From Microcaldota archaeon (GTDB taxonomy: Archaea; Micrarchaeota; Micrarchaeia; Micrarchaeales; CABMGC01), in the NCBI GenBank assembly GCA_021797745.1, contig JAJZZD010000003.1, forward strand, positions 22,032 through 86,031: a DNA stretch of 64,000 nucleotides, written 5' to 3'. Below are positions 11,657-39,536 of the stretch, piece by piece; position 1 is the first letter of the stretch, and each line of letters opens with the position of its first letter. The position numbers were made by a program, and so were the translations under genes. A model generated the notes under the pieces. That model worked only from the letters and a program-made list of their open reading frames with translations, was not told the origin of the DNA and did not search any database.

Positions 11657-12949
11657 ATGGCGGATCAAATTGAACAGACAGAACAGACGGAACATACAAG
11701 ACAAGCAGAGCGTGCAGGCAAGGCGGCACAGACCGCAGGCTTGCTGGATGTTGAGCGAACAAGGGAAGTTTACTCTAACATGAAAAATCCTTATCTTTTG
11801 AAATACTATTACAAGTTCAAGACTCTGAACCTGCTAAACACCACCGACATATATGGCTCTTCGCCGCCTGACATTTTCATAGGAAGGGCAGGCTACCCGA
11901 ATGTGTACATGGGTCCTCTTGTCCCGCCCCAAAGTGGGGATACCTCGATAATGGGAGAGCCTGAGATGTGGACCAACAAGAGCATACCTGAAATAGTCGA
12001 GTACAGGTCTATGCTCGTGCGCGGGATGTACAAGGCAAACGTCAATGACGTTGGGTTCGGAAAACTCACAGACATGCTTCAGGAGCTCGCAATCGCAGAC
12101 AAATACACCGGCGTTGACATAGAGCTAAAGCGTAAACCGTCGCTCAACGTAAGCTTCGACGAGAACAGCCAGCCTTTCGGGCCCAGCGCCCCTCTCAAGG
12201 AGATGACGCTGGAAAACACAACGGCCAACGTGAAGATTGAAAAAGCATATTCCGATACTGACATGACAGCTACGCAGGCGATACTCGAACTGTATTCGAA
12301 AGGATTGCCGGTATCGCGCATACAAAAGGCGCTCTCGGCGGGCACGTTGGGAATAGGTGACAAAAGGAAGTTCGTGCCAACGCGCTGGAGCATAACAGCA
12401 GTTGATGACACCATATCAAAGGACAAGTTGAAAATAGTCAAGGATTACACTACACTAGATTCAATCAGAATCTACGAGACCGTTGCGCTTGACAACCGCT
12501 GGGTCATTTTGATGATTCCTGGGGAATGGAGCTACGAGCTCATAGAGGCATGGTATCCTGGCACAACGTGGAACGAAAGCAAGAACAAGATAGACATATT
12601 CTCTTCAAGCGAATTCTTCTACGGAAGGAAGGGCTATGCTGAAATAGGCGGCTGTTATTATGCCGCAAGGCTTGCAGTGTCTGAGCTTTTGGAAAAACAG
12701 GGAGCGCAGGCAAAAGTAATCATAATGCGTGAAACGCACCCTGGCTACATAATGCCCGTAGGTGTTTGGAACGTAAGAGAGCACGTACGCGAGGCTCTCA
12801 GGAACAAGCCTCTTTATTTTGCAACTTTAAACGACGCCTTTGCGCATATTTCAAAGAAAATGGCCATACCTATTAACATTTGGATAAAGAACAGCGAAGT
12901 TCTGCAGAACATAAAGTATCAGAAAAGACTTTCCGGCACAGTGCTCTGA
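11657..12949 (+). CDS. Nre-family DNA repair protein
   Basis: PPDIFIGRAGYPNVYMGPLVPP...MWTNKSIPEIVEYRSMLVRGM is typical of archaeal Nre. Confidence 0.85.
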   Translation: MADQIEQTEQTEHTRQAERAGKAAQTAGLLDVERTREVYSNMKNPYLLKYYYKFKTLNLLNTTDIYGSSPPDIFIGRAGYPNVYMGPLVPPQSGDTSIMGEPEMWTNKSIPEIVEYRSMLVRGMYKANVNDVGFGKLTDMLQELAIADKYTGVDIELKRKPSLNVSFDENSQPFGPSAPLKEMTLENTTANVKIEKAYSDTDMTATQAILELYSKGLPVSRIQKALSAGTLGIGDKRKFVPTRWSITAVDDTISKDKLKIVKDYTTLDSIRIYETVALDNRWVILMIPGEWSYELIEAWYPGTTWNESKNKIDIFSSSEFFYGRKGYAEIGGCYYAARLAVSELLEKQGAQAKVIIMRETHPGYIMPVGVWNVREHVREALRNKPLYFATLNDAFAHISKKMAIPINIWIKNSEVLQNIKYQKRLSGTVL

Positions 12950-12998
12950 TCGGGATTTGAACCCAAGTTCCGGCCTTGAGAGGGCCGTGTCCTTAACT
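12942..12998 (-). tRNA. tRNA-Glu(CUC)-like 3' portion lacking a matching 5' acceptor
   Basis: Minus strand: CGGCC-CTCTCAA-GGCCG anticodon arm, GAAC variable region, TTGGG-TTCAAAT-CCCGA T-arm, TCAGAGC acceptor 3' strand + A. No GCTCTGA-like 5' strand is adjacent. Overlaps the nre stop. Confidence 0.6.
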
Positions 12999-14126: not shown

Positions 14127-14552
14127 CTATAGGAACGGATTTCTTATTTTGATTCCAGAAATTTTATTGAAATCTCTTTCGTTTTCTGTAACAATTTCAG
14201 TTATTCCATTTTCTTTCATTGTTTCAGATATCAATACGTCTAAAAAAGGAGCGTTAAATAGGTCAGCGTGTTCAAGCGCCCTGTCTACTGTATTTGAATT
14301 ATAATCTATTTTGTGCCATTGCCTTGACAGAATTAACGATTGCGTTATGATTTTGGCAGTTTCTACTGCGACATCTAATCGCCGGGTTAGCGCGTTAAAT
14401 AATTCAGCAAGTACCTGATTGGATATAACTCCAGTTATTTCGCCCTTGAACGCTTGTTCTACTAGCTTTTCGCATATTTTCCTTTTCAACGGCTCTCCGG
14501 AGTCATACGCATAACACAAAATATTAGTATCGAAAAATAGTTCATCTTTCAT
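14127..14552 (-). CDS. PIN-domain toxin (VapC-like)
   Basis: MKDELFFDTNILCYAYDSGE...HADLFNAPFLDVLI; overlaps the upstream antitoxin. Confidence 0.85.
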   Translation of the reverse strand: MKDELFFDTNILCYAYDSGEPLKRKICEKLVEQAFKGEITGVISNQVLAELFNALTRRLDVAVETAKIITQSLILSRQWHKIDYNSNTVDRALEHADLFNAPFLDVLISETMKENGITEIVTENERDFNKISGIKIRNPFL

Positions 14553-14805
14553 ACAATTCTTCCCTATTAAATTTCCATTTTTTCATTTTTATTCCTTCTT
14601 TCAATAGCGTCAACGATTTTGCTACTACGTCAGCATTTTTCTTCTTTGTCCATTCTTTCATTGCTTCTGTAAGAGCTCTCCCAAGATATCCTTTTCTTTT
14701 GCCGTATCTCTTGCTTGCCTCTATTCTAAATTCGCTTTCTGCCTCCTCATCAACATTAACCGTGATTGTTTTTGATCTGCTGTATTTTGCCATATCATCA
14801 ATCAT
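14542..14805 (-). CDS. VapB-like antitoxin
   Basis: SKTITVNVDEEAESEFRIEASKRYGKRKGYLGRALTEAMKEW; overlaps the vapC start. Confidence 0.75.
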   Translation of the reverse strand: MIDDMAKYSRSKTITVNVDEEAESEFRIEASKRYGKRKGYLGRALTEAMKEWTKKKNADVVAKSLTLLKEGIKMKKWKFNREELYER

Positions 14806-14969: not shown

Positions 14970-15392
14970 TCACCCTAATTCAACTGTGTTTATGCCAGTA
15001 CTATTGGCTGCACTAATCAACCGTTTATCAAAACTGAGTAACTTTGCGAAATTTAGCTTGCATTGGGCCAAATATATCGAATCGTATACGCTAATTTTAT
15101 TTTCCAGCGCCATCTCCATGGCGAGTCTAGATCCTAGATATGAATTTATTACGTGAATTTTGGACCAGATCGAATAAAGATAATCTATTGCAGCTTCTAG
15201 CTCTTTTTTTTCAATACTTTTTAATATCGCGTGCTGCTTCCATATTGCATTAAGCGATTCGATTAAGCAAATTTCAGGTGCAGCAACAGTTTCGCCTTCC
15301 TTGAGCGCGGTAACTAATTTATTTAGAACGTCTTGGGACTCTGATTCGTGCAGGGCCAGCTTTGCCACCGCGCTCGCGTCTATAATTATCAT
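14970..15392 (-). CDS. PIN-domain toxin (VapC)
   Basis: MIIIDASAVAKLALHE...NKISVYDSIYLAQCKLNFAKLLSFDKRL; PIN acidic residues. Confidence 0.88.
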   Translation of the reverse strand: MIIIDASAVAKLALHESESQDVLNKLVTALKEGETVAAPEICLIESLNAIWKQHAILKSIEKKELEAAIDYLYSIWSKIHVINSYLGSRLAMEMALENKISVYDSIYLAQCKLNFAKLLSFDKRLISAANSTGINTVELG

Positions 15393-15610
15393 CTAGAATC
15401 CCTGTCTTCTCTAATTAATTGTGTGCTATTTGGTGTAATTCTTCTGTGTTTATTGGCCTTTCCTATTTTGGCAAGTACCTCCTCAAGCTCTCTCGCCTTT
15501 ATTCTTGACTCTATGTAATCCCTTACTTCCTGGCTCCAATTGCCTTTATATTTTTTCATTTTAGCCTGCACCTCTTTCGAAATTCTTATAGTCATCACAG
15601 AATTTTCCAT
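15389..15610 (-). CDS. RHH-type antitoxin (VapB)
   Basis: MENSVMTIRISKEVQAKMKKYKGNWSQEVRDYIESRIK; overlaps vapC by 4 nt. Confidence 0.82.
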   Translation of the reverse strand: MENSVMTIRISKEVQAKMKKYKGNWSQEVRDYIESRIKARELEEVLAKIGKANKHRRITPNSTQLIREDRDSR

Positions 15611-24151: not shown

Positions 24152-25237
24152 ATGGATAAGCAGCTAAGGATAAAGCTTAATGAAATATTTAGGCACGCAA
24201 AAGGCGTTGGCAAGATAGTCTTGGTGAACACAGATAGGCAAGACCCTAACTTCACATACCTTACGCAGTTCACGAGCGGCCTGTTCGAAAACGACATACT
24301 TGTTCTTGAGAGCGCAGGCGCAAGGCAGTACACGAGCGAGCTCGAATACGAGACTGCGATGCTGCAGAGGGCCCCTGGAATAAAGATAACTAAGTTGACA
24401 GAGGGAAATTACAAGAAGCTGCTAAGCAGCGAGCTCAAGGGCAAAAGAATAGGCATAAACGGCGGATTCCTGCCTTATGCCACATACATGGGCCTGAAAA
24501 AGTACAAGCCAAATAAGATAATCGACGTTTCAGGCAGCTTGGAGCAGGCAAGAATAGTTAAGACGAATGCTGAAATAGAAAACATAAAAAAGGCAGTGCG
24601 TGTGACAAAGTCGGCAATGCGAACAATACAGAAATATTTCAAGGCCGGCATGAAAGAAACCGATTTGGCAAAGAAATTTGATGAGATATCGAGCGGTCTG
24701 GGCTCAGAGGGGCCGTCCTTTCCCACTATAGTATGCTTTGGCAAGAATGCGGCACTGCCGCATCATTTTCCTGACGGAACAAAACTTAAGAAAGGAGATT
24801 TCATATTGATAGACGCAGGTTCAAGGAATAAGAATTACTGCAGCGACATAACCCGGACGTTTCTGTTCGGAATCAAAAGCAGAGAAGACTATGAAAAGAA
24901 GATGGCAATTTACAATGCCGTAAAGCAGGCGCAGCAGCTTGCGATATCAAAAATAAAACAGGGAGTAAAAGGAGGCGCCGTAGACAATGCAGCAAGGGAT
25001 TACATAAACTCTGTTGAAAATGGTAAATATAAAAACACATTCATACACAGTCTCGGGCATTCGATAGGAATAGAAGTACACGACGGCTCAGGCCGCATGC
25101 TGGGTCCTGGGTCGCTGCAAGTCCTCAAGGAAGGCATGATAACAAGCGTAGAGCCAGGCATATACATAAACGGATTCGGAGGGGTAAGAATTGAAGATGA
25201 TGTACTGGTAACCACGAAGGGCGGAAAGGTTCTCTGA
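24152..25237 (+). CDS. M24-family Xaa-Pro aminopeptidase/dipeptidase
   Basis: FPTIVCFGKNAALPHHFPDGTKLKKGDFILIDAGSRNKNYCSDITRT...HSLGHSIGIEVHD...SVEPGIYI...GGVRIEDDVLVT. Confidence 0.93.
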   Translation: MDKQLRIKLNEIFRHAKGVGKIVLVNTDRQDPNFTYLTQFTSGLFENDILVLESAGARQYTSELEYETAMLQRAPGIKITKLTEGNYKKLLSSELKGKRIGINGGFLPYATYMGLKKYKPNKIIDVSGSLEQARIVKTNAEIENIKKAVRVTKSAMRTIQKYFKAGMKETDLAKKFDEISSGLGSEGPSFPTIVCFGKNAALPHHFPDGTKLKKGDFILIDAGSRNKNYCSDITRTFLFGIKSREDYEKKMAIYNAVKQAQQLAISKIKQGVKGGAVDNAARDYINSVENGKYKNTFIHSLGHSIGIEVHDGSGRMLGPGSLQVLKEGMITSVEPGIYINGFGGVRIEDDVLVTTKGGKVL

Positions 25238-25351: not shown

Positions 25352-25424
25352 GGGGAGTTCTGCTAGCTTGGTAGGCTACCACCTTCGGGAGGTGGTGACC
25401 CGAGTTCAAATCTCGGACTCCCCG
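25352..25424 (+). tRNA. tRNA-Pro(CGG)
   Basis: Acceptor GGGGAGT/ACTCCCC; anticodon arm CCACC-TTCGGGA-GGTGG; T-arm CCGAG-TTCAAAT-CTCGG. Confidence 0.95.
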
Positions 25425-25551
25425 AATTTCGACGGCAAATCTGTGATTAAAAAACAAAAATGCGAGACATCATCACAGAACATCATGTATTGAAACAGTA
25501 CACAAACAGAACATATTTAAATCATGAGTTGCATAATATTACCGTGATAAA

Positions 25552-25794
25552 ATGAATGTTACTCTAAGGGGTAGAGTAAGGCAAATCCTTGATGTCATGG
25601 TTGAGGAAGGGTATGCCAATACTAAATCAGAAGCAATACGGCTAGCCATAATTAATTTTGGCGAAAAGCAAGTCGGCGAAGAGATCAGGGTAAAGGAAAA
25701 GCTCGATAAGATCGACAATAGTATAAGAGAAGGCAAGAGGAAGGTGTTAGGCACAAAGGAGGCTTTAGGCATTTATGCAAAACATGTCAAGTGA
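25552..25794 (+). CDS. Antitoxin (RHH-like)
   Basis: MNVTLRGRVRQILDVMVEEGYANTKSEAIRLAIINF; overlaps the downstream toxin start. Confidence 0.75.
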   Translation: MNVTLRGRVRQILDVMVEEGYANTKSEAIRLAIINFGEKQVGEEIRVKEKLDKIDNSIREGKRKVLGTKEALGIYAKHVK

Positions 25795-26060
25795 TAGACC
25801 TGTACGATGCAGAGTTTGACCAAGAGTGGACTGCATACTTCCAGTCATTAGACAAAGGCATTAAAGAGAAAATTGCAAAGAAAATCGGGAAAATTCTGGC
25901 ATATCCGGCTAAAAAGCATTTGAAGAAAAGTTTATTTTTTGTGGATGAAGTAGGACAGTATAGAATTCTCTACCGGATTTTTGAAGAAAACAAACGGGTA
26001 AGATTCTATTTTGTAGGTACTCATAAAGAGTATGAAAAATGGTATAAACAGGACATCTGA
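25791..26060 (+). CDS. RelE/ParE-like toxin
   Basis: LDKGIKEKIAKKIGKILAYPAKKHLKKSLFFVDEVGQYRILYRIFEENKRVRFYFVGTHKEYEKW. Confidence 0.8.
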   Translation: MIDLYDAEFDQEWTAYFQSLDKGIKEKIAKKIGKILAYPAKKHLKKSLFFVDEVGQYRILYRIFEENKRVRFYFVGTHKEYEKWYKQDI

Positions 26061-26143
26061 TTGTAAGCCTAAGCAATATCTGATGTTATTGAATGCCATG
26101 TTTTTTACATTTAACTTAACTTATCGCCTATCGCACAGATGCA

Positions 26144-26176
26144 GTGACCCGAGTTCAAATCTCGGACTCCCCGAAT
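26144..26176 (+). repeat. tRNA-Pro 3'-end direct repeat (att-like)
   Basis: gtgacccgagttcaaatctcggactccccgaat, identical to 25395-25427. Confidence 0.95.
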
Positions 26177-26392
26177 CTCATAAGGGGTTATATATAGAAC
26201 GCACATTTTGCACCCCTATTTTGTCGTCGAAGCCAAATTTTGTCGTCGGTAAATTCAGTGTTTCTTAGAGATAATATCGTCACTGAATGATAAACCAGTA
26301 CCTGATTCCAGGCAATTGAGCGTAGATTCTTCATTTGCAGCGTTTTTCATGCAAACATCTTCTTTGCTATACCATAAGTATCTGAACGTTCC

Positions 26393-26608
26393 ATGCATAT
26401 CATACGTGAATGCATGACTATTGAGACTGAACACGGCGATTATGTCTTTCTCATGAACAACTCGAACAACATTGAGTTGGACGCAAAGCTTATGAGGAAA
26501 ATGGAGAAGAGCAAACTGGGCTACAGGCTTAGCAAGGATTATCTGATGACAAGAAGAGAGTATCTGAAGCGGGCGATAAAGGAATTGAAGGCATGGCACT
26601 ATATCTGA
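26393..26608 (+). CDS. Small hypothetical protein
   Basis: 71 aa ORF; TATA-like ttatatata near 26188 could serve it or a ncRNA. Confidence 0.35.
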   Translation: MHIIRECMTIETEHGDYVFLMNNSNNIELDAKLMRKMEKSKLGYRLSKDYLMTRREYLKRAIKELKAWHYI

Positions 26609-26690
26609 AATGAATAGATTGAAGCTAATCTGCCGATTTCTTTACCTGTGTGTTTATTAGATTTGTAGCGCGCTATCCTTATCCTGCGCA

Positions 26691-27380
26691 TCAGCTGTCG
26701 CTTCCTGCAGCCGCGGCAGCAGACAACGCCATGCGCTTGATCTCTTTGTGTTCCTTTAGTCTGCTTGCCAGCCTGCTGAGCCTTTCGCCCCGTTTGGCAG
26801 CTTTCCTTTTTATTATCTGAATCCTTCCTTTCTTGAAAAGCCGCGAGAACCAGCCAGACTGGTACGCGTTCAGCCTGTTTAGCAGCTGCTCTTGTCCGGC
26901 GCGCACCCTGCTGCTTTTGTTCACCAGCATGAGCTCCTTCTTGTCCATCATGAGCATGCAGCTGTTCAGGTATCTTTTCATGGCTTTTGTGTTCTTCGCC
27001 ACCTGCGTAAGGCCAACTAGTATTACATTCAGCATCTCGTTGTTCCCAAGAACGTAGCCATAGGCGATCGCAAGTGCCTCTATGCTCTTGAGGTATTGGC
27101 CGAGCTCTACTGCTGTCATTCCCTTTGAATTTATCGTTATGTTCTGCATGCACAAACCTTCGTAGCCTAAGCCAAGGGTGCCGTGCATGGCCTTCGCGTG
27201 CTCTTCGAGCATGCGCTCCTTGCTGTCCTTTTCCTCCTTATCTGATTTCTCGTGCGACGCTGTCATCTGCCTCTTCCAGTTTTCCCTTATCACTTTCTTT
27301 ATTGCTTCGTATTCAAGGCTCCCTGGCCTTGAGTTCACGATTTGGCTTTCAAAAGAGATTTCATGTTCTGGCAAGCGCAC
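26691..27380 (-). CDS. Hypothetical protein
   Basis: 229 aa ORF, basic C-terminus, no family recognised. Confidence 0.55.
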   Translation of the reverse strand: MRLPEHEISFESQIVNSRPGSLEYEAIKKVIRENWKRQMTASHEKSDKEEKDSKERMLEEHAKAMHGTLGLGYEGLCMQNITINSKGMTAVELGQYLKSIEALAIAYGYVLGNNEMLNVILVGLTQVAKNTKAMKRYLNSCMLMMDKKELMLVNKSSRVRAGQEQLLNRLNAYQSGWFSRLFKKGRIQIIKRKAAKRGERLSRLASRLKEHKEIKRMALSAAAAAGSDS

Positions 27381-27539
27381 ACCTTTCAGATGAATGGCGG
27401 CACTGCAGCTAACAGTTCATTTTCAATGCATATTACTGTCATACTGGCGCCTATTTCCAGGCACACGCCTGAAAGATGTTTAAACAGAAGAACGTTATTG
27501 CTTTTAAGCATTATGGTGATATTGCCGCGAGCCCGCGAT

Positions 27540-29270
27540 TCACAGACTGAAGAAAATCCTCTCCTGCTTGCTGTCGAGCTTGTAGAATCCCATTCGCTCG
27601 AGGTTCACAGTTTCTCCGTCTTTGAGTTTGTCGACATATTTCTCAATGTATCCGGGTACGTCTTTCATGCTATCTGGATTCAGCTCGTTGTTCTTGAGAA
27701 GCGGCTCGATCTGCTTTATAGTGCCCTGCGCATAATTGCCTTCGTTGACCCACTGTATGACAGGCACGTTCTCGCTTGAGTTTACGATTTCTCCTTTAAT
27801 CACGTTGCCGGCTTTCGTTATCCTGACCCTGTAAAGGTCCTTAAGCAAAACTACGCTGCTGTTTTCTATTGCATTTGCGTCCTCCCCGCTTATGTAAAAA
27901 ATATTGCTTAGCGTGTATTCCTTATATCCAAGGTCTTCTGTCGGGTGCAGCCTGAGCTTCACCATTTTCTGTTCTTCTGTCATGCTGCCTATTTCAAGCC
28001 TGACTGGCTCTTTGACGAAGAAAAGTCTTTTAGATGTTCTGTCTATTATCTTCCTGTTCTCAGATAGCAGCATTCCTATGTCTATCTTCCTCTCGCTTTT
28101 TCCTGTGCCGAACCTCAGCACGAAATTCCTTATTGCCTCTGCGCTCACTCCCCTGTTCCTTAATCCAGATAGGGTTACCAATCTTGGGTCGTCAAATCCC
28201 TTAAGTATGTGCTCATTTATCAGAGGAACTATCTGTCTTTTTGAAGTCATGTTGTCCTTTATCGCAAGCCTTGCATACGGATGTATCCTGGGTATTCTCA
28301 GGTCGAGCGCTTCGAGTATCGCAGAGTAGAGGTAGTCCCTTAATTCGTATTCCTTGCTCCTGAAGGCATCTGTGACGCCATGTATAGAATCCTGTATCGG
28401 CGTGTTGAAGTCATATGTAGGCCACGCCCTGTACTTGTTTCCCTGGCGGTAATGCTCCGATTCCTTTATTCGGAATATGGTGGGGTCGCGCATTGTGGTG
28501 TTTGACGCCTTCATGTCACCTTTGAACCTTATTGCTACCTCCTTTTCTCCGTACTTCCCTCTTATCATGTCTTCGAATATTTTTAAGTTGTCATCTGCTG
28601 GCGTTTCCCTATGTCCGCATGCAATCCCGTGCAGCCTGTTTTCCTTCCTTGTTGCATCGTCACACATGCATGCATACGCTCCTCCTTTCGCAATCAGCTT
28701 TCGCGCATAATCATATACCTTCTCTATGCTGTCGCTTGCATAGTATTCCTGGTCGAACTTTGCGCCAAGCCACTCCAGGTCTTTCTTGATGGCGTCTACA
28801 TAATCCTGCTTTTCCTTTTCTGGATTCGTGTCGTCAAAATAAAGGAATGCCTTTCCCTTGTACATCTTTGCGAACTCCTGCCCAAGGAATATGTTCATAG
28901 CATGGCCTATGTGCAGGTAACCGTTCGGTTCAGGTGCATACCTTGTGGCGAAATTGCCTTCCTGCACGCCTTCTAGAATCATCCTTGGTTTTGAGGTTTC
29001 CTCTGCCCTTTTAATTTCCCTTTCTTCGAATTCCTTTCTGAAAGGCGCGTACGCCTTTTCAAGGTCATTCTTGCCAAGGCCATTTACTTCCTTGACTATC
29101 GCGCCAACTTCCTTTGAAACGTCCTTCATGTTTTCCTTAAGCTCAGGATAAATCCCCAGAAGCTTGCTTATCACAGCTCCCGGCTGTGCCTTTCCGTAGT
29201 CTATGGCGTTCTTTACAGCGAACTTCCTTGCCGCCTTTTCGGCTTCTTCATTTAATTGCATTAAACTCAT
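27540..29270 (-). CDS. gltX: Glutamyl-tRNA synthetase (archaeal GluRS)
   Basis: FATRYAPEPNGYLHIGHAMNIFLGQEFAKMYKGKAFLYFDDTNPEKEKQDYVDAI; TSKRQIVPLI KMSKS-equivalent region. Confidence 0.93.
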   Translation of the reverse strand: MSLMQLNEEAEKAARKFAVKNAIDYGKAQPGAVISKLLGIYPELKENMKDVSKEVGAIVKEVNGLGKNDLEKAYAPFRKEFEEREIKRAEETSKPRMILEGVQEGNFATRYAPEPNGYLHIGHAMNIFLGQEFAKMYKGKAFLYFDDTNPEKEKQDYVDAIKKDLEWLGAKFDQEYYASDSIEKVYDYARKLIAKGGAYACMCDDATRKENRLHGIACGHRETPADDNLKIFEDMIRGKYGEKEVAIRFKGDMKASNTTMRDPTIFRIKESEHYRQGNKYRAWPTYDFNTPIQDSIHGVTDAFRSKEYELRDYLYSAILEALDLRIPRIHPYARLAIKDNMTSKRQIVPLINEHILKGFDDPRLVTLSGLRNRGVSAEAIRNFVLRFGTGKSERKIDIGMLLSENRKIIDRTSKRLFFVKEPVRLEIGSMTEEQKMVKLRLHPTEDLGYKEYTLSNIFYISGEDANAIENSSVVLLKDLYRVRITKAGNVIKGEIVNSSENVPVIQWVNEGNYAQGTIKQIEPLLKNNELNPDSMKDVPGYIEKYVDKLKDGETVNLERMGFYKLDSKQERIFFSL

Positions 29271-29285
29271 CCGCTCCGAATGTTC

Positions 29286-29911
29286 CTATCTCGTGATGCT
29301 CAGATTGCCGTTTATTGTCCCGTTTGCATATATCAGCGCTGCAACAGTCACATTCACCGACACTACCGCGTTTGCCGAAAGCGTTTCAGGGATTGAATAG
29401 ACACGCTTGCTGCTGGGTATATTCACGGTGATGCTCTGGTTTGCAGATAATATGTTGAATTTGATTGTGGCTGGCAGGCCGATCAGCGCGCTCGTGGAGT
29501 ACGAGACGCAGTCTGGCCTGTTTATATGCGCATTTACGAATGCGTATATCTGGTAGCTGCTCATGTTTCCTGACTCCACGAAAAGCTTTGAATTTGATTC
29601 GGTAATGAAGGTGGCCACTGAATTATTGTTTTCTAGATTCTGCAGCACGTTCGATGCTTCAGCAATTGTTTTGTTGGTGTCATTGCCGCAGTTCACGCTT
29701 ATGGAAAGGGTTTTTGCATATCCTGTGACATTCGCTCTCAGGAACGCTTTTGCATAGACCTGCGCTCCGCCTGCATTTGTCTTATTGCCACTCTGGGACG
29801 ACTGGCCTAAGTTCGAGTTTGGCGCGCTGAAGTTCAAATATCCTGAAACGAAAGTGACGGCTACTGCAATAGTTCCAAGCAACATGTACAATTGTTTCCT
29901 GTTCAAAAACA
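29286..29911 (-). CDS. Membrane-anchored hypothetical protein
   Basis: Single N-terminal TM LLGTIAVAVTFVSGYL, Asn/Ser-rich exterior; start uncertain (GTG 29911 or ATG 29885). Confidence 0.6.
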
Positions 29912-30026
29912 CACCGGTGCGCCCGTGTCTGCAGGGGCAATAGATTTGATAGATGCAGTTCTTAATGATAGGTATAAAATAATAAAAGGTTAACATAATG
30001 TCACAAAATCAAAAATAGGTGTAAAG

Positions 30027-30737
30027 ATGGCTTTTGAAAACGGAGACTTCGTAAAAATAGACTACGATGAATGGCGCGCAGCCGACAATGCGCTCGTGTT
30101 TACCACTGACAGGAAAACCGCAGAAGCGAACGGCGTGTTAGACAAGGATGCAACTTACAGGCCGGCTCTTGTGATAGTGGGCAAGGGCAGCATAATCAAA
30201 GGCGTTGACAAAGCAGTCAGCGGTATGAACGTAAACGAGGAAAAGAATATAGAACTCGCACCCGCTGATGCGTACGGCGAGAGAAACCCGCAGCTTGTGA
30301 GAATTATGCCTGCTGCCGAATTCAAGAAACGTGACATAGACCCGATGCCGGGAATGAGGATAAACCTTGACGGCATAGCGGCAACAGTCAAAACAGTGAA
30401 CTCAGGAAGGGTGGTTATTGATGCGAACCATCCGCTTGCAGGCGAAAAGCTTAGATGCAGGATAAAGATTGTCGCGAAGGTCGACTCTGACAAGGACAAG
30501 ATATCTGCGCTTTCAGAGATGCTTAACCTAAGTCCTAAATCTGTTGAGGTAAACGACGGTTCCGCAAAAATAGTTTTTGATGAAAAGACAAAGAAGGATG
30601 CCGACTTCATGGTGAGCAAGTCAGCGCTTGTCGATGCAGTGTTCAAGTATCTTGACAAGATAAACCACGTTTCTGTGGATGAGCTTTATTCAAAAGAGGC
30701 GGAGAAGCAGCCGGAAAAGGAAACAGAGAAGCAGTAA
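30027..30737 (+). CDS. FKBP-type peptidyl-prolyl isomerase
   Basis: VGKGSIIKGVDKAVSGMNVNEEKNIELAPADAYGERNPQLVRIMPAAEF...VVIDANHPLAGEKL. Confidence 0.9.
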   Translation: MAFENGDFVKIDYDEWRAADNALVFTTDRKTAEANGVLDKDATYRPALVIVGKGSIIKGVDKAVSGMNVNEEKNIELAPADAYGERNPQLVRIMPAAEFKKRDIDPMPGMRINLDGIAATVKTVNSGRVVIDANHPLAGEKLRCRIKIVAKVDSDKDKISALSEMLNLSPKSVEVNDGSAKIVFDEKTKKDADFMVSKSALVDAVFKYLDKINHVSVDELYSKEAEKQPEKETEKQ

Positions 30738-30917
30738 TTTATTACTGCTTTCTAATCAATCGTTTCCGTTTTTGCCGTCAGCATATACTATGCGCCAGAC
30801 GTTCGGCCTTTCCTCAATTATTTTTACAGGCCGCAGCTCGTTTCTTTTGCGCTCTTCATCTAATTTCTTTCTGCTGCTTTTTGCAAATATATCAAACAAG
30901 TCAGTAATTTTACCATC

Positions 30918-31214
30918 TCAGAATCGTTTCCTGTAAGTGTAATGGCTTTCGCCAAGAGAGTATTCATCTGCGTATCTGTCGAGAATTGATTTGCTGATCT
31001 CGGGATTTACTGCATTCTTTCCAGACTTCGTTATCACTACAAATCCAAAATCGCCGCTTGTTATCCTGACTTCTTTGACGTTTTCCGCGCTTATGAGCTG
31101 CTGCGCGAATTCCTTCGCGTTAACGTTGTTTTTCGGCTTAAGAAAATAGAACAGACACGCATGCCCTGCGCGCTTTGTTTTATCCGTTTTTCTCATTTTC
31201 ACACTCTTCAGCAT
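30918..31214 (-). CDS. Hypothetical protein
   Basis: 98 aa ORF; start could be internal ATG. Confidence 0.5.
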   Translation of the reverse strand: MLKSVKMRKTDKTKRAGHACLFYFLKPKNNVNAKEFAQQLISAENVKEVRITSGDFGFVVITKSGKNAVNPEISKSILDRYADEYSLGESHYTYRKRF

Positions 31215-31217
31215 AAA

Positions 31218-31272
31218 CTGATGGCGCGCAGCGTTTGGTGGGGAACAAAATACGGCCGCGCGTCATCAGCAT
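31218..31272. ncRNA. Candidate structured RNA element, copy B
   Basis: 12-bp stem CTGATGGCGCGC (31218-31229)/GCGCGTCATCAG (31258-31269) with one G.U; loop GTGGGGAACAAAATACGGC matches copy A GTGGGGATAAAAATACGGC. Confidence 0.5.
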
Positions 31273-31337
31273 GAATCAGGTAATGCAAGTAATAGGCGAG
31301 CATTGCGGCGGGACAGAGTGGTTGAGTGTTGGGTGTT

Positions 31338-31353
31338 GGTAATCTTATGGATG
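31338..31353 (+). repeat. 16-bp inverted repeat arm
   Basis: GGTAATCTTATGGATG; exact reverse complement CATCCATAAGATTACC occurs downstream of the same gene near 33080-33095 and again near 33435-33450. Confidence 0.8.
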
Positions 31354-31592
31354 TTTGCACTGGATGGTAGGGAAAAATATAATGCAAACTTATCCCACTC
31401 AATTTCATATTCCCGCCCGTAACTATATTATGAAGTTTGTTTTATTTATAAGCTAGCCAAAAAAACATATGAAATAGGTGTTAGTTTATTCTAATTTGGA
31501 ATTTTGAATGCAAAAAATACACAAGTTTGATTATATGCTATAGCTTATTCATCAGCGCCAAGAGTTATATAACTATTTGGCATAGTATAATT

Positions 31593-32999
31593 ATGAGTTA
31601 TGAAATGCCAGAAGGCGTTAGAGAGGTCGCGGAACGTATAAAGAAGGAGTATCCGTTCAAGGTAAGCATAAAGCGGATAAACGGCAAATATTACATATAT
31701 CACATCTACGCGCTCAAGGGCAAAGAAGATAAGGCAAAAAAGGTTACCGAATACTTAGGTAGAATAACTGAAGAAGGACAGTTCGTTAAGAAACTGGGCG
31801 AGAAGGTAACCGACAACAAGCTCAAGCTTGCAGAGGAAATCATACGTGCATACGGCGGCAAGGTCATAATGCCACACGAACCAGTACCAAAGGAACTTAT
31901 GCCGCAGCAAAATAACCAGCAACAGCTTATTGATGAAAAAGACAAGATAATACTGACTGCGCTGAGCATGAACGCGAGAATCAAATATTCAAAAATAGGC
32001 GCGATGACTGGTTTGCCGGTGCAAACTGTGGCATACAGAATAAAAAGACTGGAAAAAGAATTCAGAATAAAGTATACTGAAGAGTTGGATTTGAACAAAC
32101 TAGGTTTTTCCAACTATCTGATTTTAGGGAAATTTCTTGGAGAGAAGCCAAGTGCAGAAGCGATAAAGAAGGCTGCGGAGAGTGAACCACGTGTGCAATT
32201 AGCAATGACAACAAAGGGAAAATACGATGTTGTTATGTTCTGCGTGGGGGAAAGCACTGATGCAATAAGCTGGGCATTTACAGGTTTACGAGAAAAGGAA
32301 GGGCTCGGCAAATACGAATCGGAATGGTATATAAGCCCGTTAAGAGACGTATATAATTTTGTCCCATTAAGAAGCGCCTTCTTTGATTTGTTAGAAAAGA
32401 GAGTTTGGCATAGAACAAGAGGAAATTCAAAGGCAGGGAAAAATGATTTGAAATATAGGGAATTTGTCTTGTTGAAAGAGCTCAACAAAAATAGCATTGA
32501 AAGTTTCAGCACGATAGATGCGGCATACGGCTTACCAAAGGGAAGCGCGAAGAACGCCTATGAAAGCTTGAGAAGCGAAGAAAGAGAGATTTTGATACGG
32601 CCGACTATAGGAATAGAAGACGACATGATTAAATTCGATGCTATTCTATTGCTTAGCGTATTAAATAGGGATTTGTTTGGCACGACGAGAAATTTACTTA
32701 GGCTGCATATAATAAACGAAAAAGTTGACCGGATAACTAATAAATTTACATACATTGCAGATATGGAAACTCCTGATGGCATATTGTTTATTTCTTCACT
32801 GCTGAAGGAAGGAGATCTTGAAAGGGAGGAAATAGAAATAAACGACCATATTAAAGGCATATCATTTCACTCCCTTATAGTCAGCAGTATTTTAGTTGGC
32901 AAATTCTGTAAGAGGAGATTTGATAATTCATACTCTAAACAATATTTAAATCTGGTAAAAAATAAGCAAGTAGAAAGAAAGGAAGCACTTGAATACTGA
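31593..32999 (+). CDS. Lrp/AsnC-like HTH regulator (paralogue of 18307-19644)
   Basis: ILTALSMNARIKYSKIGAMTGLPVQTVAYRIKRLEKEFRIKY plus the same N-terminal INGKYYIYHIYALKG...TEYLGRI module and C-terminal architecture. Start trimmed to MSYEMPEG. Confidence 0.75.
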   Translation: MSYEMPEGVREVAERIKKEYPFKVSIKRINGKYYIYHIYALKGKEDKAKKVTEYLGRITEEGQFVKKLGEKVTDNKLKLAEEIIRAYGGKVIMPHEPVPKELMPQQNNQQQLIDEKDKIILTALSMNARIKYSKIGAMTGLPVQTVAYRIKRLEKEFRIKYTEELDLNKLGFSNYLILGKFLGEKPSAEAIKKAAESEPRVQLAMTTKGKYDVVMFCVGESTDAISWAFTGLREKEGLGKYESEWYISPLRDVYNFVPLRSAFFDLLEKRVWHRTRGNSKAGKNDLKYREFVLLKELNKNSIESFSTIDAAYGLPKGSAKNAYESLRSEEREILIRPTIGIEDDMIKFDAILLLSVLNRDLFGTTRNLLRLHIINEKVDRITNKFTYIADMETPDGILFISSLLKEGDLEREEIEINDHIKGISFHSLIVSSILVGKFCKRRFDNSYSKQYLNLVKNKQVERKEALEY

Positions 33000-33077
33000 T
33001 ACTAATATCGATTACTAATTAAAAAGAAGATTAGCGCAATGCGCTACCACTAAGTCACTCAGTCTCCGTTTCCAGGG

Positions 33078-33165
33078 TCATCCATAAGATTACCTAATAA
33101 TACTGAAAATACAAAGCTTTTAAACCTTGCCTGAATGCGAGTTACCTATTATACACGCATCGTTT
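33078..33165 (+). repeat. Repeat R1 downstream of Lrp-like gene
   Basis: tcatccataagattacctaataatactgaaaatac...tttaaacc...gttacct...tata shared with R2 and R3. Confidence 0.85.
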
Positions 33166-33360
33166 TTTGTCTCATATTTAGAAAAAGAAAAGTTAGATTT
33201 AACTAATGAAATTAAAGGTATTTCTTTATACTTGTTGATAGTAAGTGACATATTAGTAGGAAATTTATGCAACAGACGATTCGACAACATGTATGCAATG
33301 CAATATATAAGTCTCGTTAAAGAAAAAGAACTAGAAAGAAAAGAATCCGCCGAATACTAA
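33127..33360 (+). pseudogene. C-terminal cassette 1 of Lrp-like regulator
   Basis: NEIKGISLYLLIVSDILVGNLCNRRFDNMYAMQYISLVKEKELERKESAEY vs DHIKGISFHSLIVSSILVGKFCKRRFDNSYSKQYLNLVKNKQVERKEALEY. Confidence 0.8.
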
Positions 33361-33432
33361 TAAAAAGAAAAAAAATAAGATAACTAAGATAGCAAAATAT
33401 ACACGATAAGAATTAATCACTTAGTGTTACCG

Positions 33433-33533
33433 TCATCCATAAGATTACCTAATAATACTGAAAATACGAGGTTTTTAAACCCTGCTGTGCTGCGCGTTAC
33501 CTGCTATACCGCGCCTGATTTGTGCCTAAATAA
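33433..33533 (+). repeat. Repeat R2
   Basis: Copy of R1; shares a long extension with R3 (ccctgctgtgc..gcgcgttacctg.tata..gcgcctgatttgtgcctaaataat). Confidence 0.9.
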
Positions 33534-33580
33534 TTGCCAGTTTTCGAAGACGAAGATCTAGAAAAAAATCAGAATCTGAA

Positions 33581-33739
33581 ATGGAGACTTACATAAAATG
33601 GATAACATTAGATTCCCTGATAGTAAGCCAAACATTATTAGGAAACCTCTGCCGCAGACTATTCGATAATGCATATACTTTGCAGTACAGGAACCTTTTG
33701 AAAGAAAAACAGATAGAAGAAAAAGAAATCAGATACTAA
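33581..33739 (+). pseudogene. C-terminal cassette 2 of Lrp-like regulator
   Basis: METYIKWITLDSLIVSQTLLGNLCRRLFDNAYTLQYRNLLKEKQIEEKEIRY*, homologous to the regulator C-terminus; absent from the ORF track. Confidence 0.75.
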
Positions 33740-33829
33740 GAAATATAACTAAAATGAACTATTATTGCCCGTAGTTATTTCCAACACTGCAAACTTCAGC
33801 CGCTTTTTTATCCGGTTCCATATCCGCCT

Positions 33830-33935
33830 CCATCATTCATACGATTACCTAATAATACTGAGAATACGAGATTTTTAAACCCTGCTGTGCAAGCGCGTTA
33901 CCTGTTATACAGCGCCTGATTTGTGCCTAAATAAT
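33830..33935 (+). repeat. Repeat R3
   Basis: tcattcatacgattacctaataatactgagaatacgagatttttaaaccctgctgtgc..., near-identical to R2. Confidence 0.9.
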
Positions 33936-34012
33936 ACTTACCGCGCACATAAAAATAACTCCTAGAAATGGTGCTTAGCCTGTGCCTGCACTTGCCGTAT
34001 TCTGTTCCAAAT

Positions 34013-34210
34013 TCACTTCTGGTCCCGTATGTTCAATGCATATGTGCCATTCGCCTTTATGCCCATCTTCTTCGCTATCTCGGACTTCTCTGCGTTCATT
34101 ATTATGACATATCCGTTCCATTTGTGGGTCAGGTCGCTCTTCCCGCACAACGGGCACACGTCTCCCTGCGTAATAATGAGCCTGCAGTTCCTGCACGCTT
34201 TTTCAACCAT
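34013..34210 (-). CDS. spt4: Transcription elongation factor Spt4
   Basis: KACRNCRLIITQGDVCPLCGKSDLTHKWNGYVIIMNAEKSEIAKKMGIKANGTYAL. Confidence 0.93.
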   Translation of the reverse strand: MVEKACRNCRLIITQGDVCPLCGKSDLTHKWNGYVIIMNAEKSEIAKKMGIKANGTYALNIRDQK

Positions 34211-34250
34211 TCGACCACTTCTTTGTTTCTTTTTTACCTATTCTGACCTT

Positions 34251-34835
34251 CTATCTCCTTTTACCTTTTGCAGCCCTCAGCCCTTTTATTCTCTCTTCCT
34301 TTATCCAGTCCAGTTTCCCGAGCCCCTCCGGGCGCATGGTGAGCGCGACCTTTGTGCCGTTGCCCCTGGTGCTTACCGTAGATACCTTTGCGTATACTGT
34401 GTCGCCTTTCTTGAGGCTCCTCTTAAGACTCTTTGAAACGAGCATGCCAGATTTCCTGTCAAAGCTCACGAAGTCGTTAGTGACCTGCGACAAATGCACA
34501 AGTCCGTCAAGCGGGCCTATTCTTACATACACTCCGAAATCGGCGAATTCAGAAGCCTCTCCGACCACGACCTCGTCAACGTCAAGTTTGAACGAAAGCA
34601 CGTCGAATGTTACGTCGTGATGCGCATTCGGGTCTTCAGGCAGTATGAAGCCCTCGCTTATGTCCCTTATGTTGTAAACTACCAGCATTATGCCAAGGTC
34701 CTTGTCAACCGTCCTCTCGTACTTGTTCCTGAGCATATCTGCCGCTGCCTTTGTCGCATCCTCGCCTATGTATTTTGGCGGTATGCTTACAGAATCTTTT
34801 ATTGTAGTAACGTAATACAATAGATCACCAAACAA
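34251..34835 (-). CDS. rpoE: RNA polymerase subunit E' (Rpo7)
   Basis: DLGIMLVVYNIRDISEGFILPEDPNAHHDVTFDVLSF...EFADFGVYVRIGPLDGLVHLSQV (S1 domain); adjacent to spt4. Confidence 0.93.
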   Translation of the reverse strand: MFGDLLYYVTTIKDSVSIPPKYIGEDATKAAADMLRNKYERTVDKDLGIMLVVYNIRDISEGFILPEDPNAHHDVTFDVLSFKLDVDEVVVGEASEFADFGVYVRIGPLDGLVHLSQVTNDFVSFDRKSGMLVSKSLKRSLKKGDTVYAKVSTVSTRGNGTKVALTMRPEGLGKLDWIKEERIKGLRAAKGKRR

Positions 34836-34875
34836 GCGTCATATATGAAAAATGAAAGCTATAATTACCTTAGCT

Positions 34876-35250
34876 TTATCTCAGCGTCCCGCTTCGCGTG
34901 GCGCTAAACACCTTTATGCCGTGCATTCTTACTTTTTTCTTAAGGTTTATATCGTTTGTGCATACTACGCATTCCCTGCCGCCCGCATCTTTTGCCGCGT
35001 TTTCTATCCAACGGTCCACATTTAGCTCATTTTCCTCTATCTTGAGCGCAGTGGAACCTATCTCCATCAATGCGGTTCTTGCGAGTTTAGCCCTGTTGCC
35101 TTTTTCCTTTGCCAGTCTTTCAAGCTCGTTGACTACGCCTTTAGAGATCACCATCTCCTGCTTCGGGAATCTGTCGGAAATTATCTGGAACACGTTCTTC
35201 ATGTTGCTCAGCGCAAACAGTATCGAGCTCGTGTCGATCAGGATTCGCAT
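34876..35250 (-). CDS. PIN-domain protein (FCF1-like)
   Basis: MRILIDTSSILFALSNMKNVFQIIS...CVVCTNDINLKKKVRMHGIKVFS; clustered with rpoE/spt4. Confidence 0.8.
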   Translation of the reverse strand: MRILIDTSSILFALSNMKNVFQIISDRFPKQEMVISKGVVNELERLAKEKGNRAKLARTALMEIGSTALKIEENELNVDRWIENAAKDAGGRECVVCTNDINLKKKVRMHGIKVFSATRSGTLR

Positions 35251-35282
35251 GCACTTATTATATAAATATGAAATTATAACAT

Positions 35283-35900
35283 TTGCTGTATTTAATGCTG
35301 GTTTTCGACGTAATAGGTCAGCTGAACACCGCAGCATTCCATGTCGCTGACTCAGTGGCGAGTCCTGCGCTGAACAGCGTAATGGCAATCCTCGCAGAGA
35401 GCTTCTTTGTGGTTCTGCCGCTGCTTGTGATATACATGTTCCTCAAGAAGGACAGGAACGTTGTGCCATTCATGATCATGGCTGTAGCCGCGTACATAAT
35501 CGCCGACATAATAAAGATCATCGTGCGAGAGCCGAGACCTTGCACAGTTCCGCAGCTAAGCTGGATAAACGCAGTAGGCTGCGAAAGCTCTACTTTTTCA
35601 TTCCCTTCTGGACACGCAACAGTTTTAACCGGTTTGTCATTTTTCCTGGGAAATTACAAATACATACGAGCCCTTTACATATTTTATGTCATTTTGATAC
35701 TCTTTGGCAGGGTATATCTCGGCCAGCACTATTTCACAGATGTGATCGCAGGCATAGCGCTGAGCATAGTAGTCGCGTCTGCAGTTTACTGGAAAAGGAA
35801 CTGGATAAACAAGGCTGCTGAGCCAGTGTACAGATTTGCGGATTCGGTTGTTGAAAAACTTACAAACATGATATACGGCAAAACGCCTAAAAATGTATAA
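35283..35900 (+). CDS. PAP2-family phosphatase
   Basis: KIIVREPRPC...FPSGHATVLTGL...RVYLGQHYFTDVIAG. Confidence 0.92.
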   Translation: MLYLMLVFDVIGQLNTAAFHVADSVASPALNSVMAILAESFFVVLPLLVIYMFLKKDRNVVPFMIMAVAAYIIADIIKIIVREPRPCTVPQLSWINAVGCESSTFSFPSGHATVLTGLSFFLGNYKYIRALYIFYVILILFGRVYLGQHYFTDVIAGIALSIVVASAVYWKRNWINKAAEPVYRFADSVVEKLTNMIYGKTPKNV

Positions 35901-35931
35901 ATAGCTTAACAATCTCATAAACCTGTTTCTT

Positions 35932-36339
35932 ATGGCAATCGAAGACATATATGCTGAGGAATTGATATACAACTACGAGAATCCGAGCGCAAAAGGCAAG
36001 CTTGCTAACAGCACCGTAAGCATGCACGAGGAGAATGTGTCGTGCGGAGATGTAATAACAGTATATCTCGTCATAAAAGACGGCAAGATAGCAAATGCGA
36101 AGTTCGAGGGTACTGGCTGCGTGATATCTATGGGAACTGCCAACATGCTCATAGAGCATGTCAAGGGGGTTGGCCTGGAGCAGCTTGAGAAGATGACACA
36201 AGGAGATTTGCTGAAGCTAATCACAATAGACCCGGGACCTGTGCGCATGCACTGCGCGACCCTGTCATTGAGGGCCGTCAAGAAAGCGGTTCTTGGGTAT
36301 GAGAAAAAGCCAATAGACACTGCGACAAAAGAGTTGTAG
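35932..36339 (+). CDS. IscU/SufU-like Fe-S scaffold
   Basis: NVSCGDVITVYLVIKDGKIANAKFEGTGCVISMGTANML...PVRMHCATLSLRAVKKAV. Confidence 0.88.
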   Translation: MAIEDIYAEELIYNYENPSAKGKLANSTVSMHEENVSCGDVITVYLVIKDGKIANAKFEGTGCVISMGTANMLIEHVKGVGLEQLEKMTQGDLLKLITIDPGPVRMHCATLSLRAVKKAVLGYEKKPIDTATKEL

Positions 36340-36401
36340 CATAATAAAGCGCGAGCTTATTCTACAATCTTATTTAAATTGAAGGTTCGTAATATTTTTG
36401 C

Positions 36402-36474
36402 AGTCCCGTCGTCTAGCGGCCAAGGACGCAGGGCTTTGGACCCTGCTACATCGGTTCGAATCCGGTCGGGACTA
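36402..36474 (+). tRNA. tRNA-Gln(UUG)
   Basis: Acceptor AGTCCCG/CGGGACT; anticodon arm CAGGG-CTTTGGA-CCCTG; T-loop TTCGAAT. Confidence 0.95.
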
Positions 36475-36564
36475 ATTTATTTTTATGTATGCCGCATGAG
36501 AGTGTTACGAAATGCGACAGTAATATTTATATATCTATTAATGTCATATTAATACGGTATTAAT

Positions 36565-36813
36565 ATGGTTAAGGCGCTGGTAGACATAAGCGATAATGCA
36601 AACACAATACTTAATATAATTAAAGCAGAGTACGGCCTTAAAGATAAATCTCAGGCGATAGACCGTATGGCGGAAGACTATAAAACATTAGTTTTCGAAC
36701 CTAAAGTTAAGGCGTCTTACCTAAAAAAACTTGAATCGATAAAGAAAGAACGCCTAATAAAAATAGGGGGAATCACAGATTTCGACAAGAAGTACGGTTT
36801 AACCAAGAAGTGA
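36565..36813 (+). CDS. Antitoxin (DUF2683-like)
   Basis: MVKALVDISDNANTILNIIKAEYGLKDKSQAIDRMAEDY; directly upstream of the toxin. Confidence 0.75.
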   Translation: MVKALVDISDNANTILNIIKAEYGLKDKSQAIDRMAEDYKTLVFEPKVKASYLKKLESIKKERLIKIGGITDFDKKYGLTKK

Positions 36814-36817
36814 GCTA

Positions 36818-37093
36818 ATGCCGCAATCCTTGCCGTATGACATTGAATTACGCGAGCATGTAGCTAAGATATTCGAAAAATTGGAGAAGCGAGATAGGAC
36901 GCAGCTGATTGCCATACGGAAGAAATTGGCTGAAATTGTAGAGGATCCGCAGAAGTTCAAGCCGCTTCATCCTCCGATGCAAAGCATCCGAAGGGTGCAT
37001 ATATTGAAAAGCTTCGTTTTGACTTATTCAGTCGTTGAAGAAAAGCACACTATAATAATCGAAGATTATGCGCATCACAATGAAGTATACTGA
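36818..37093 (+). CDS. RelE-like toxin
   Basis: MPQSLPYDIELREHVAKIFEKLEKRDRTQLIAIRKKLAEIVEDPQKFKPLHPPMQSIRRVHILKSFVLTYSVVEEKHTIIIEDYAHHNEVY. Confidence 0.82.
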   Translation: MPQSLPYDIELREHVAKIFEKLEKRDRTQLIAIRKKLAEIVEDPQKFKPLHPPMQSIRRVHILKSFVLTYSVVEEKHTIIIEDYAHHNEVY

Positions 37094-37120
37094 TGAGTGG
37101 CAAACAAAAAGCAGTTTTGG

Positions 37121-37156
37121 CCCTGCTACATCTGTTCGAATCCGGTCGGGACTAAT
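37121..37156 (+). repeat. tRNA-Gln 3'-end direct repeat (att-like)
   Basis: ccctgctacatctgttcgaatccggtcgggactaat, one mismatch to 36441-36476. Confidence 0.93.
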
Positions 37157-37201: not shown

Positions 37202-38059
37202 ATGCTGCCTCTGTATATTCTTGTTGCAGCCGCTTCGGGGTTCTGGGGCGTATCTGCGGTTCTCGAAAAAAAGGCGCTCGGAAAAGAATATGCGTCTGCA
37301 TATCTATCCAGTTTCGCGCTCATAACTGCGGTATTTTCGATAGTTTTGCTGCCATTTTCTAACTTCTCGATGTCAGTACAGAGCCTGTCGCTTATTTACA
37401 TATACAGTGTGATTACTACTTTTGCATACCTTCTTGTCGCGAGAATTTTCAGGCACAGCAACATATCTGCTTCATCGCCTTTGTTCAGCACCCTGCCGCA
37501 GGTCCTTATTGTCATATTTGCGTTTTTGATCCTGGGCGAATCCCTTTCTTACTTTCAGTACTTGGCGCTCGCAATTCTCCTGCTCGCCGCCTATTTCATG
37601 CTTTTCGGAAGCAGGTCGAGGGCGTATTTCCAAAGCAACAAATACCGGATCATGACTGTGATTTATTCGCTGGTTTTTGGCGCAAGTGCCATATTGCTAA
37701 AATACGTATTGTTCAGCGTAAACATCTTCGCATTCCTTGTTTTGTCGCAGATATTCATGCTGATTAACATGGGCGTTTACATGCAGCTTAAATACGGCGG
37801 CATAAAAGAGACAGCGTCAAATCTGAGGAAGCACAGCGGCATAATCATACCCATTTCAGTGCTAACAATTGGTTACAGAGCCTTTTACTATGCGGCAGTA
37901 TCTCTTGTCGCAGTAAGCATCGCCGCGCCTCTTGTGAACACTTTGTACGTGGCCATAACGCTGCTTGCCGGAATATTCCTTTTCAAAGAAAAAGATGCAC
38001 TGAGAAAAGGAGTCTTGGCGATTGTCATAATTGCGGCCGCGTATGCGCTCGTATCTTAG
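37202..38059 (+). CDS. EamA/DMT-family transporter
   Basis: About 10 hydrophobic helices, internal duplication; TLYVAITLLAGIFLFKEKDALRKGVLAIVIIAAAY. Confidence 0.8.
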   Translation: MLPLYILVAAASGFWGVSAVLEKKALGKEYASAYLSSFALITAVFSIVLLPFSNFSMSVQSLSLIYIYSVITTFAYLLVARIFRHSNISASSPLFSTLPQVLIVIFAFLILGESLSYFQYLALAILLLAAYFMLFGSRSRAYFQSNKYRIMTVIYSLVFGASAILLKYVLFSVNIFAFLVLSQIFMLINMGVYMQLKYGGIKETASNLRKHSGIIIPISVLTIGYRAFYYAAVSLVAVSIAAPLVNTLYVAITLLAGIFLFKEKDALRKGVLAIVIIAAAYALVS

Positions 38060-39394: not shown

Positions 39395-39536
39395 GGGGTT
39401 GTTGCGTAATCAGGCAGCGCGGCTGGCTCCAGATGTTTATAATTGTTTGAGCTAAATGCGATGATGAGGATCTGGAATGGCAAAAATTGAAATATGAAGT
39501 CACCAGCAAGTTTGGGTTCAAATCCCAGCAACCCCA
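39395..39536 (+). tRNA. tRNA-Trp(CCA) with about 69-nt intron
   Basis: Exon 1 GGGGTTG-TT-GCGTAATCAGGCAGCGC-G-GCTGG-CTCCAG (39395-39432); exon 2 A-CCAGC...TTGGG-TTCAAAT-CCCAG-CAACCCC-A (39502-39536). Confidence 0.9.

Follow-up and report, generated by a model that had tools for sequence, protein, structure and literature searches.

What placed a pair of toxin-antitoxin genes between a tRNA gene and a second copy of that tRNA's 3' end, twice in the same stretch of an archaeal genome? The stretch (hereafter the window) is 64,000 nucleotides of contig JAJZZD010000003.1 from a Microcaldota archaeon of the Micrarchaeota, and the two loci are islands behind its tRNA-Pro(cgg) and tRNA-Gln(ttg) genes. 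An earlier reading of the letters alone (the sequence-only reading) had described both, with spacings of 749 and 680 bp, and had proposed a minimal mobile class of toxin-antitoxin (TA) modules. The layout of intact tRNA, TA pair and 3' fragment was confirmed: two programs call both tRNAs, the repeats agree at 33/33 and 35/36 positions, and both spacings are right, being the repeat periods of the Pro and Gln islands. Each island is a cassette of about 0.65-0.75 kb, bounded by attachment (att) sites and carrying one predicted type II TA operon. We favour, with some confidence, the reading that these are small cassettes targeted to tRNA genes, put in place by tyrosine recombinases supplied in trans and maintained through addiction. 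The parts of the islands and their flanks are as follows (window positions, strand, description).

24152..25237, +, M24-type aminopeptidase gene, left flank of the Pro island; adjoins tRNA-Pro(cgg) in most relatives too
25352..25424, +, tRNA-Pro(cgg), intact, insertion target (ARAGORN and Rfam, 50.0 bits)
25395..25427, +, repeat copy at tRNA-Pro, 33 nt, from the T arm to the 3' end plus 3 nt
25552..25794, +, Pro-cassette antitoxin, 80 aa, ribbon-helix-helix-like by eye, weak NCBIfam regulator matches
25791..26060, +, Pro-cassette toxin, 89 aa, RelE/ParE fold (PF05016, Foldseek)
26144..26176, +, distal tRNA-Pro 3' fragment, 33/33 nt
26184..26216, +, stretch after the Pro fragment, found directly 3' of tRNA-Pro(cgg) in relatives and resembling a casposon terminal inverted repeat (TIR)
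35932..36339, +, IscU-like gene, left flank of the Gln island; same place in relative G014 (L278)
36402..36474, +, tRNA-Gln(ttg), intact, insertion target (ARAGORN and Rfam, 57.3 bits)
36441..36476, +, repeat copy at tRNA-Gln, 36 nt
36565..36813, +, Gln-cassette antitoxin, 82 aa, DUF2683-like (E=0.015, below cut-off)
36818..37093, +, Gln-cassette toxin, 91 aa, RelE/YafQ family (RelE_StbE above cut-off)
37121..37156, +, distal tRNA-Gln 3' fragment, 35/36 nt, or 39/42 if taken from 37115
37202..38059, +, EamA transporter gene, right flank of the Gln island; directly 3' of tRNA-Gln in relatives (empty site)

A single two-gene operon, on the strand of its tRNA, occupies the space between the repeats of each island. 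As the sequence-only reading had it, this leaves no room for an integrase: neither window cassette holds an integrase, a cas1 gene or any other gene for recombination or transfer between its repeats.

We compared one genome per species to determine whether the operons are insertions. In one relative (G014) the gene order is PAP2, IscU, tRNA-Gln, a gap of 22 bp and EamA, with the left side as in the window. The gap between tRNA-Gln and EamA is similarly short in three further relatives (23 bp in G006, about 33-39 bp in G033 and 49 bp in G029). In our genome, these two genes are separated by the TA pair and the fragment, with 46 bp from the fragment to EamA. Since alignment of the short flanking sequence was uninformative (221.5 versus 207.6 ± 8.1 for shuffles), the insertion at tRNA-Gln is decided by gene order. 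The sequence-only reading had named TA genes at the same locus in all relatives, with no empty sites, as the finding that would speak against it; the tRNA-Gln site is instead empty in these four.

At tRNA-Pro(cgg), most relatives have the upstream aminopeptidase without TA genes. The sequence after our Pro fragment resembles the post-tRNA sequence of several relatives (summed score 122, shuffles 81 ± 5), whereas the sequence after our intact tRNA-Pro does not match it (88, shuffles 79 ± 5). We dropped an interpretation of this shared sequence as the native 3' flank, and thus as a clean empty site, because it resembles the TIR of a casposon in the same genome. The Pro comparison is therefore only supportive, and the clean empty site is that of tRNA-Gln. 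The comparisons support both TA pairs as insertions at tRNA 3' ends and not duplications, in keeping with the earlier view that the islands did not arise by simple duplication.

The toxins are recognisable by family and fold. The Pro toxin matches PF05016 with 24.6 bits (cut-off 23), and its predicted structure (predicted local distance difference test, pLDDT, 80) has solved RelE toxins as its top Foldseek matches, including those of Pyrococcus and Methanocaldococcus. The Gln toxin matches the NCBIfam family RelE_StbE (TIGR02385) with 32.1 bits (cut-off 27.9). The earlier naming of RelE-like toxins thus holds, while that of the antitoxins is weaker: the Pro antitoxin matched no Pfam family, the Gln antitoxin matched DUF2683 only at E=0.015, and the predicted antitoxin structure was poor (pLDDT 65) and gave no clear fold. 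Sequence searches of the PDB with toxin and antitoxin gave no match. The antitoxin and toxin genes overlap in the Pro pair and are 4 nt apart in the Gln pair; they are co-oriented, and the pair is kept in relatives. In one relative, about 250 bp of extra sequence splits the Pro-type antitoxin and toxin genes (L110:5749-6000). From toxin fold or family and the small co-oriented gene upstream, both pairs are predicted type II TA systems of the RelE/ParE superfamily, with the antitoxins assigned mainly by position and small size.

The two islands belong to a wider pattern in their own genome (G000; 806 kb in nine contigs, about 91% complete), which we scanned whole by taking 15 kb around every tRNA and keeping segments with a score of at least 14. 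tRNAs were called with ARAGORN, with an Rfam check near the window and on three other contigs. Seven same-strand downstream 3'-end segments were found, five of them scoring at least 26; the three control directions gave 1, 2 and 0. Of 27 toxin genes, 10 lie near a tRNA 3' fragment, versus 0.8 expected under random placement. Both window islands are real, and counting only two was an undercount, with at least four more tRNAs in this genome having a 3' fragment (Val-tac, Leu-tag, Pro-tgg and Thr-cgt). The tRNA-Leu(tag) fragment lies 1.4 kb downstream, with an AAA_14/DUF4143 protein inside and AbiEii outside, and that of tRNA-Val(tac) lies 0.8 kb downstream, with one unknown gene inside and HicBA followed by a MazE-like/ParE pair outside the repeat. 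The fragments of tRNA-Pro(tgg) and tRNA-Thr(cgt) are 12.4 kb and 5 kb downstream, respectively. Apparent fragments at C3:176154, C4:34973 and in G036 may be unrecognised or degenerate tRNAs and were kept out of the main claims.

Several further observations concern these loci and the tRNA calls. The tRNA-Val(tac) repeat on contig C3 (54/54 nt) departs from the other islands in that just 12 nt of it belong to the tRNA, the remaining 42 nt being downstream sequence. Each of the genome's four AbiEii genes (C1:27548, C8:18455, C2:35312 and C4:347) has a tRNA 3' fragment no more than 1.5 kb away. A tRNA-Trp with a 69-nt intron at 39395-39536 was not picked up by the default scan of the window for tRNAs. 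A tRNA-Glu(ctc)-like sequence at 12933-12997 on the minus strand (77% identity over 65 nt) has no matching 5' acceptor strand and received no tRNA call; two VapBC-like pairs follow it (14127-14805 and 14970-15598).

We also looked at where relatives of the two toxins occur in other genomes. A scan of named genomes with the Pro toxin gave its best matches in Candidatus Micrarchaeota, then in Diapherotrites. Its relatives are located 3' of Pro, Glu, Ser, Arg and Val tRNAs, and those of the Gln toxin 3' of Gln, Asp, Val and Phe tRNAs. Counting tRNAs within 1.1 kb of a toxin, with our own locus excluded and the Pro set held to at least 40% identity, the tRNA end facing the toxin was the 3' end in 23 cases (24 without the identity limit) and the 5' end in 1, counts that are not fully independent since some tRNAs are clustered and some genomes related. 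By set, the counts were 11 versus 1 for Gln and 12 versus 0 for Pro (about 1.7 and 3.1 expected). At seven loci the toxin is enclosed by the tRNA and a 3' fragment (L111, L112, L114, L118, L145, L320 and L326), and no repeats were found in the control directions. Among viral contigs, the Pro toxin had no relative, and the junction predicted for a Pro circle had no exact match.

Some of these units are stacked. At L114, tRNA-Pro is followed by a VapBC-like pair, a 30/30 repeat, a Pro-type TA pair and a 26/27 repeat; at L145, tRNA-Val is followed by a Pro-type TA pair, a repeat, HicBA and another repeat. Three short repeats of tRNA-Ser surround a Pro-type TA pair at L127 of the Diapherotrites. 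The series behind tRNA-Leu(tag) in the partly scanned genome G028 runs from a tyrosine integrase unit (1.8 kb) through a 32/32 repeat, an ATPase unit (1.2 kb), a 30/31 repeat and an AbiE unit (1.5 kb) to a perfect repeat. Single mini-cassettes with a PIN toxin occur in G002 and G028 at tRNA-Arg(gcg), tRNA-Glu(ctc) and tRNA-Leu(cag), the Arg-gcg repeat of G002 being 53/53. In nine cassettes the distance from stop codon to repeat is -4 to 93 nt. No mini-cassette was found downstream of any tRNA in G036, a complete genome of one contig. Because the same TA families occur at many tRNAs, both singly and in arrays, we regard them as a class and not a coincidence. This partly supports the minimal mobile class that had been proposed. 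The class is not limited to TA genes, as some att-bounded units hold an ATPase or an unknown gene.

The repeats themselves point to the kind of enzyme involved. Those of the cassettes mostly span offsets of about -30 to 0/+3, from the T arm to the tRNA 3' end, and no significant TIRs were found at the two window cassettes. Integrase-bearing elements with the same att geometry are present in relatives, with repeat offsets of -26..0 at tRNA-Arg(cct) in G002 and -30..+2 at tRNA-Leu(tag) in G028, in agreement with the tyrosine-recombinase footprint seen by the sequence-only reading. The tyrosine integrases of relatives mostly lie directly 3' of tRNAs, such as those behind tRNA-Gln in G026, where a tRNA-Gln fragment is 4.7 kb away, and behind tRNA-Pro(cgg) in G032. 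Our own assembly, about 91% complete, yielded no intact tyrosine or serine integrase (no PF00589, PF16795 or PF00239 match). Since the cassette repeats match the extent of those of integrase elements and differ from casposon geometry, a tRNA-adjacent tyrosine integrase of the relatives' family is most likely the maker of the window cassettes.

On the reading we favour, a cassette would arrive as a circle bearing a copy of the tRNA 3' end and recombine with the tRNA gene in the chromosome. The core brought in would make the tRNA whole again, and the former 3' end would remain as the distal fragment. The tyrosine integrase would be supplied in trans by another element, most likely of the tRNA-adjacent family of relatives. 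Repeated use of one tRNA would stack cassettes into arrays, and the TA operon would penalise their loss. A broader version is tentative: Micrarchaeota tRNA genes may serve as landing platforms for single-operon TA or defence cassettes in an integron-like traffic, driven in trans by a small set of tRNA-adjacent tyrosine integrases, with the target tRNA changed between species by a swap of the att core.

The same genome holds a candidate for another maker. A casposon-like element lies outside the window at the tRNA-Pro(tgg) 3' end (G000:C1:16683-27434), with a Cas1 of 389 aa (PF01867, E=6e-57), a 918-aa frame that by eye is a family B DNA polymerase, a 15-nt target duplication at offset -5..+10 and near-perfect TIRs (score 26; 0/200 shuffles as good). 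Behind it is an AbiE pair with a 31-nt tRNA-Pro fragment at its far end. Open frames for Cas1 of about 400 aa are also found in G006, G025, G027 and G029. A casposon-TIR-like sequence, GGGGTTATATATAG...CATTT...CACC, stands directly 3' of several tRNA-Pro(cgg) genes and one tRNA-Gln (window 26184-26216; L007, L008, L009, L014, L018 and L284), and may end miniature casposon-like elements, because several of these genomes have no Cas1 match.

The Cas1 casposase could in principle have inserted the TA units as miniature casposons, with the repeats as target-site duplications; the intact element at a tRNA 3' end and the TIR-like sequence after the Pro fragment would fit this. We consider it very improbable and rejected the casposase as cassette maker on repeat geometry: a 15-nt duplication with strong TIRs contrasts with T-arm repeats of 33-36 nt with no significant inverted repeats, and G002 and G028, which both have mini-cassettes, gave no Cas1 match. 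Homologous recombination across about 30 bp, independent of any integrase, could also bring in a small circle that carries a tRNA 3' segment; this would leave the same footprint and suit a genome in which no intact integrase was found. It is still unlikely, as it leaves unexplained why cores end near the tRNA 3' end, why their offsets are common to integrase-bearing elements and how tRNA ends enter circles. Least credible of all is that chance or local duplication put TA operons next to tRNA fragments; this view can draw on the few TA genes away from tRNAs in these genomes, and is contradicted by the empty sites, the 23 versus 1 orientation and the 10/27 toxin genes versus 0.8 expected.

Erosion is a more serious rival, since integrase remnants exist in our own genome. 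Integrase-bearing tRNA elements would have lost everything but a TA pair whose loss is toxic, so that different elements at different tRNAs share TA cargo, a possibility that we rate as real if rather doubtful for the class as a whole. Several findings weigh against mobile cassettes, and some of them speak directly for erosion. Neither a circle nor excision nor integrase activity was observed, and TA-tRNA pairs without a detectable fragment are known from seven loci (L109, L110, L115, L292, L313, L318 and L327). Members of one TA family are found with a different core at each tRNA, as erosion would account for; mobile cassettes would have to exchange cores, and a simple trans model offers no explanation for this. 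Behind tRNA-Leu(cag) on C1 (G000:C1:60216-60858) lies the C-terminal remnant of an integrase (about 83% identity over 42 aa), with a frameshifted Fic/Doc-like toxin frame between it and the tRNA, and at L329 an 85-aa integrase remnant stands between tRNA-Val and the TA genes. A second remnant in our genome, N-terminal, is behind another tRNA gene (C6:51808-51951). Given the remnants at these two other tRNAs, some tRNA-TA loci are clearly eroded integrase-bearing elements. Erosion does not sit easily with perfect or near-perfect repeats around minimal content (33/33, 35/36, 53/53 at G002 Arg-gcg, 30/30 at L114), with the short stop-to-repeat distances in nine cassettes or with the retention of a useless distal fragment that random deletion should remove from a streamlined genome. 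It would also require an identical outcome repeatedly for arrays of several minimal units. Cassettes and fossils may both occur.

Known systems share parts of this organisation. Integrons and clusters of attC sites lacking integron-integrases (CALINs) consist of small cassettes in arrays, with an att site at the end of each and often with TA modules as cargo. The arrays described here are alike in this, and in G028 stand next to a tyrosine integrase. They differ in that the att site is a tRNA 3' end and not attC, the platform is a functional tRNA gene, IntI is absent (no PF00589 match in our genome) and the cargo often has its own promoter-like region. Casposons likewise target tRNA 3' ends, one of them in our genome, but need Cas1, TIRs and a short target duplication, which are absent in the window cassettes. 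Cis-mobilizable elements (CIMEs) are known to derive from integrative conjugative elements of bacteria, whereas the cassettes here are two-gene archaeal units with no known parent. Like CIMEs, which have been reviewed together with integrative mobilizable elements (PMC5704250), they are att-bounded, lack a recombinase and form arrays beside an integrase-bearing element, as in G028. Integration at archaeal tRNA 3' ends, with att repeats of 8-69 bp and arrays, is established (PMC6563490). Tyrosine-integrase elements of archaea (SSV- and pNOB8-type, and thaumarchaeal integrated mobile genetic elements; PMC6563490) share the tRNA 3' insertion, the range of repeat lengths and the reuse of one tRNA as an array, but those published are complex and multigene, while the cassettes lack an integrase and have one or two genes. 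The genomic islands described in acidophilic archaea are also tRNA-flanked with TA genes, one with a XerD-type integrase (PMC12302457; PMC5498576), and TA genes occur in the smaller islands of the cultivated relative Mia14 (PMC5498576). The smallest reported island is 4.2 kb, and the sub-kilobase units here fall below the range of those predictions (PMC12302457). We found no description of sub-kilobase integrase-less TA cassettes at tRNAs in the open-access literature on Micrarchaeota and DPANN.

The cassettes work like a CIME or an integron cassette, with membership of neither established, and their sequences point to a class of tiny integrated elements, little noticed so far, without their own integrase. 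If the units move as such, they would be about the smallest possible integrated element, an att core plus an addiction pair, too small for island finders to report. If they are fossils instead, they would be a clean record of the decay of integrated elements around an addiction module; deep metagenome reads could decide between the two. Cassettes moved by borrowed recombinases would explain the spread and build-up of TA modules in tiny, streamlined DPANN genomes, and would offer a concrete test of TA pairs as selfish genes.

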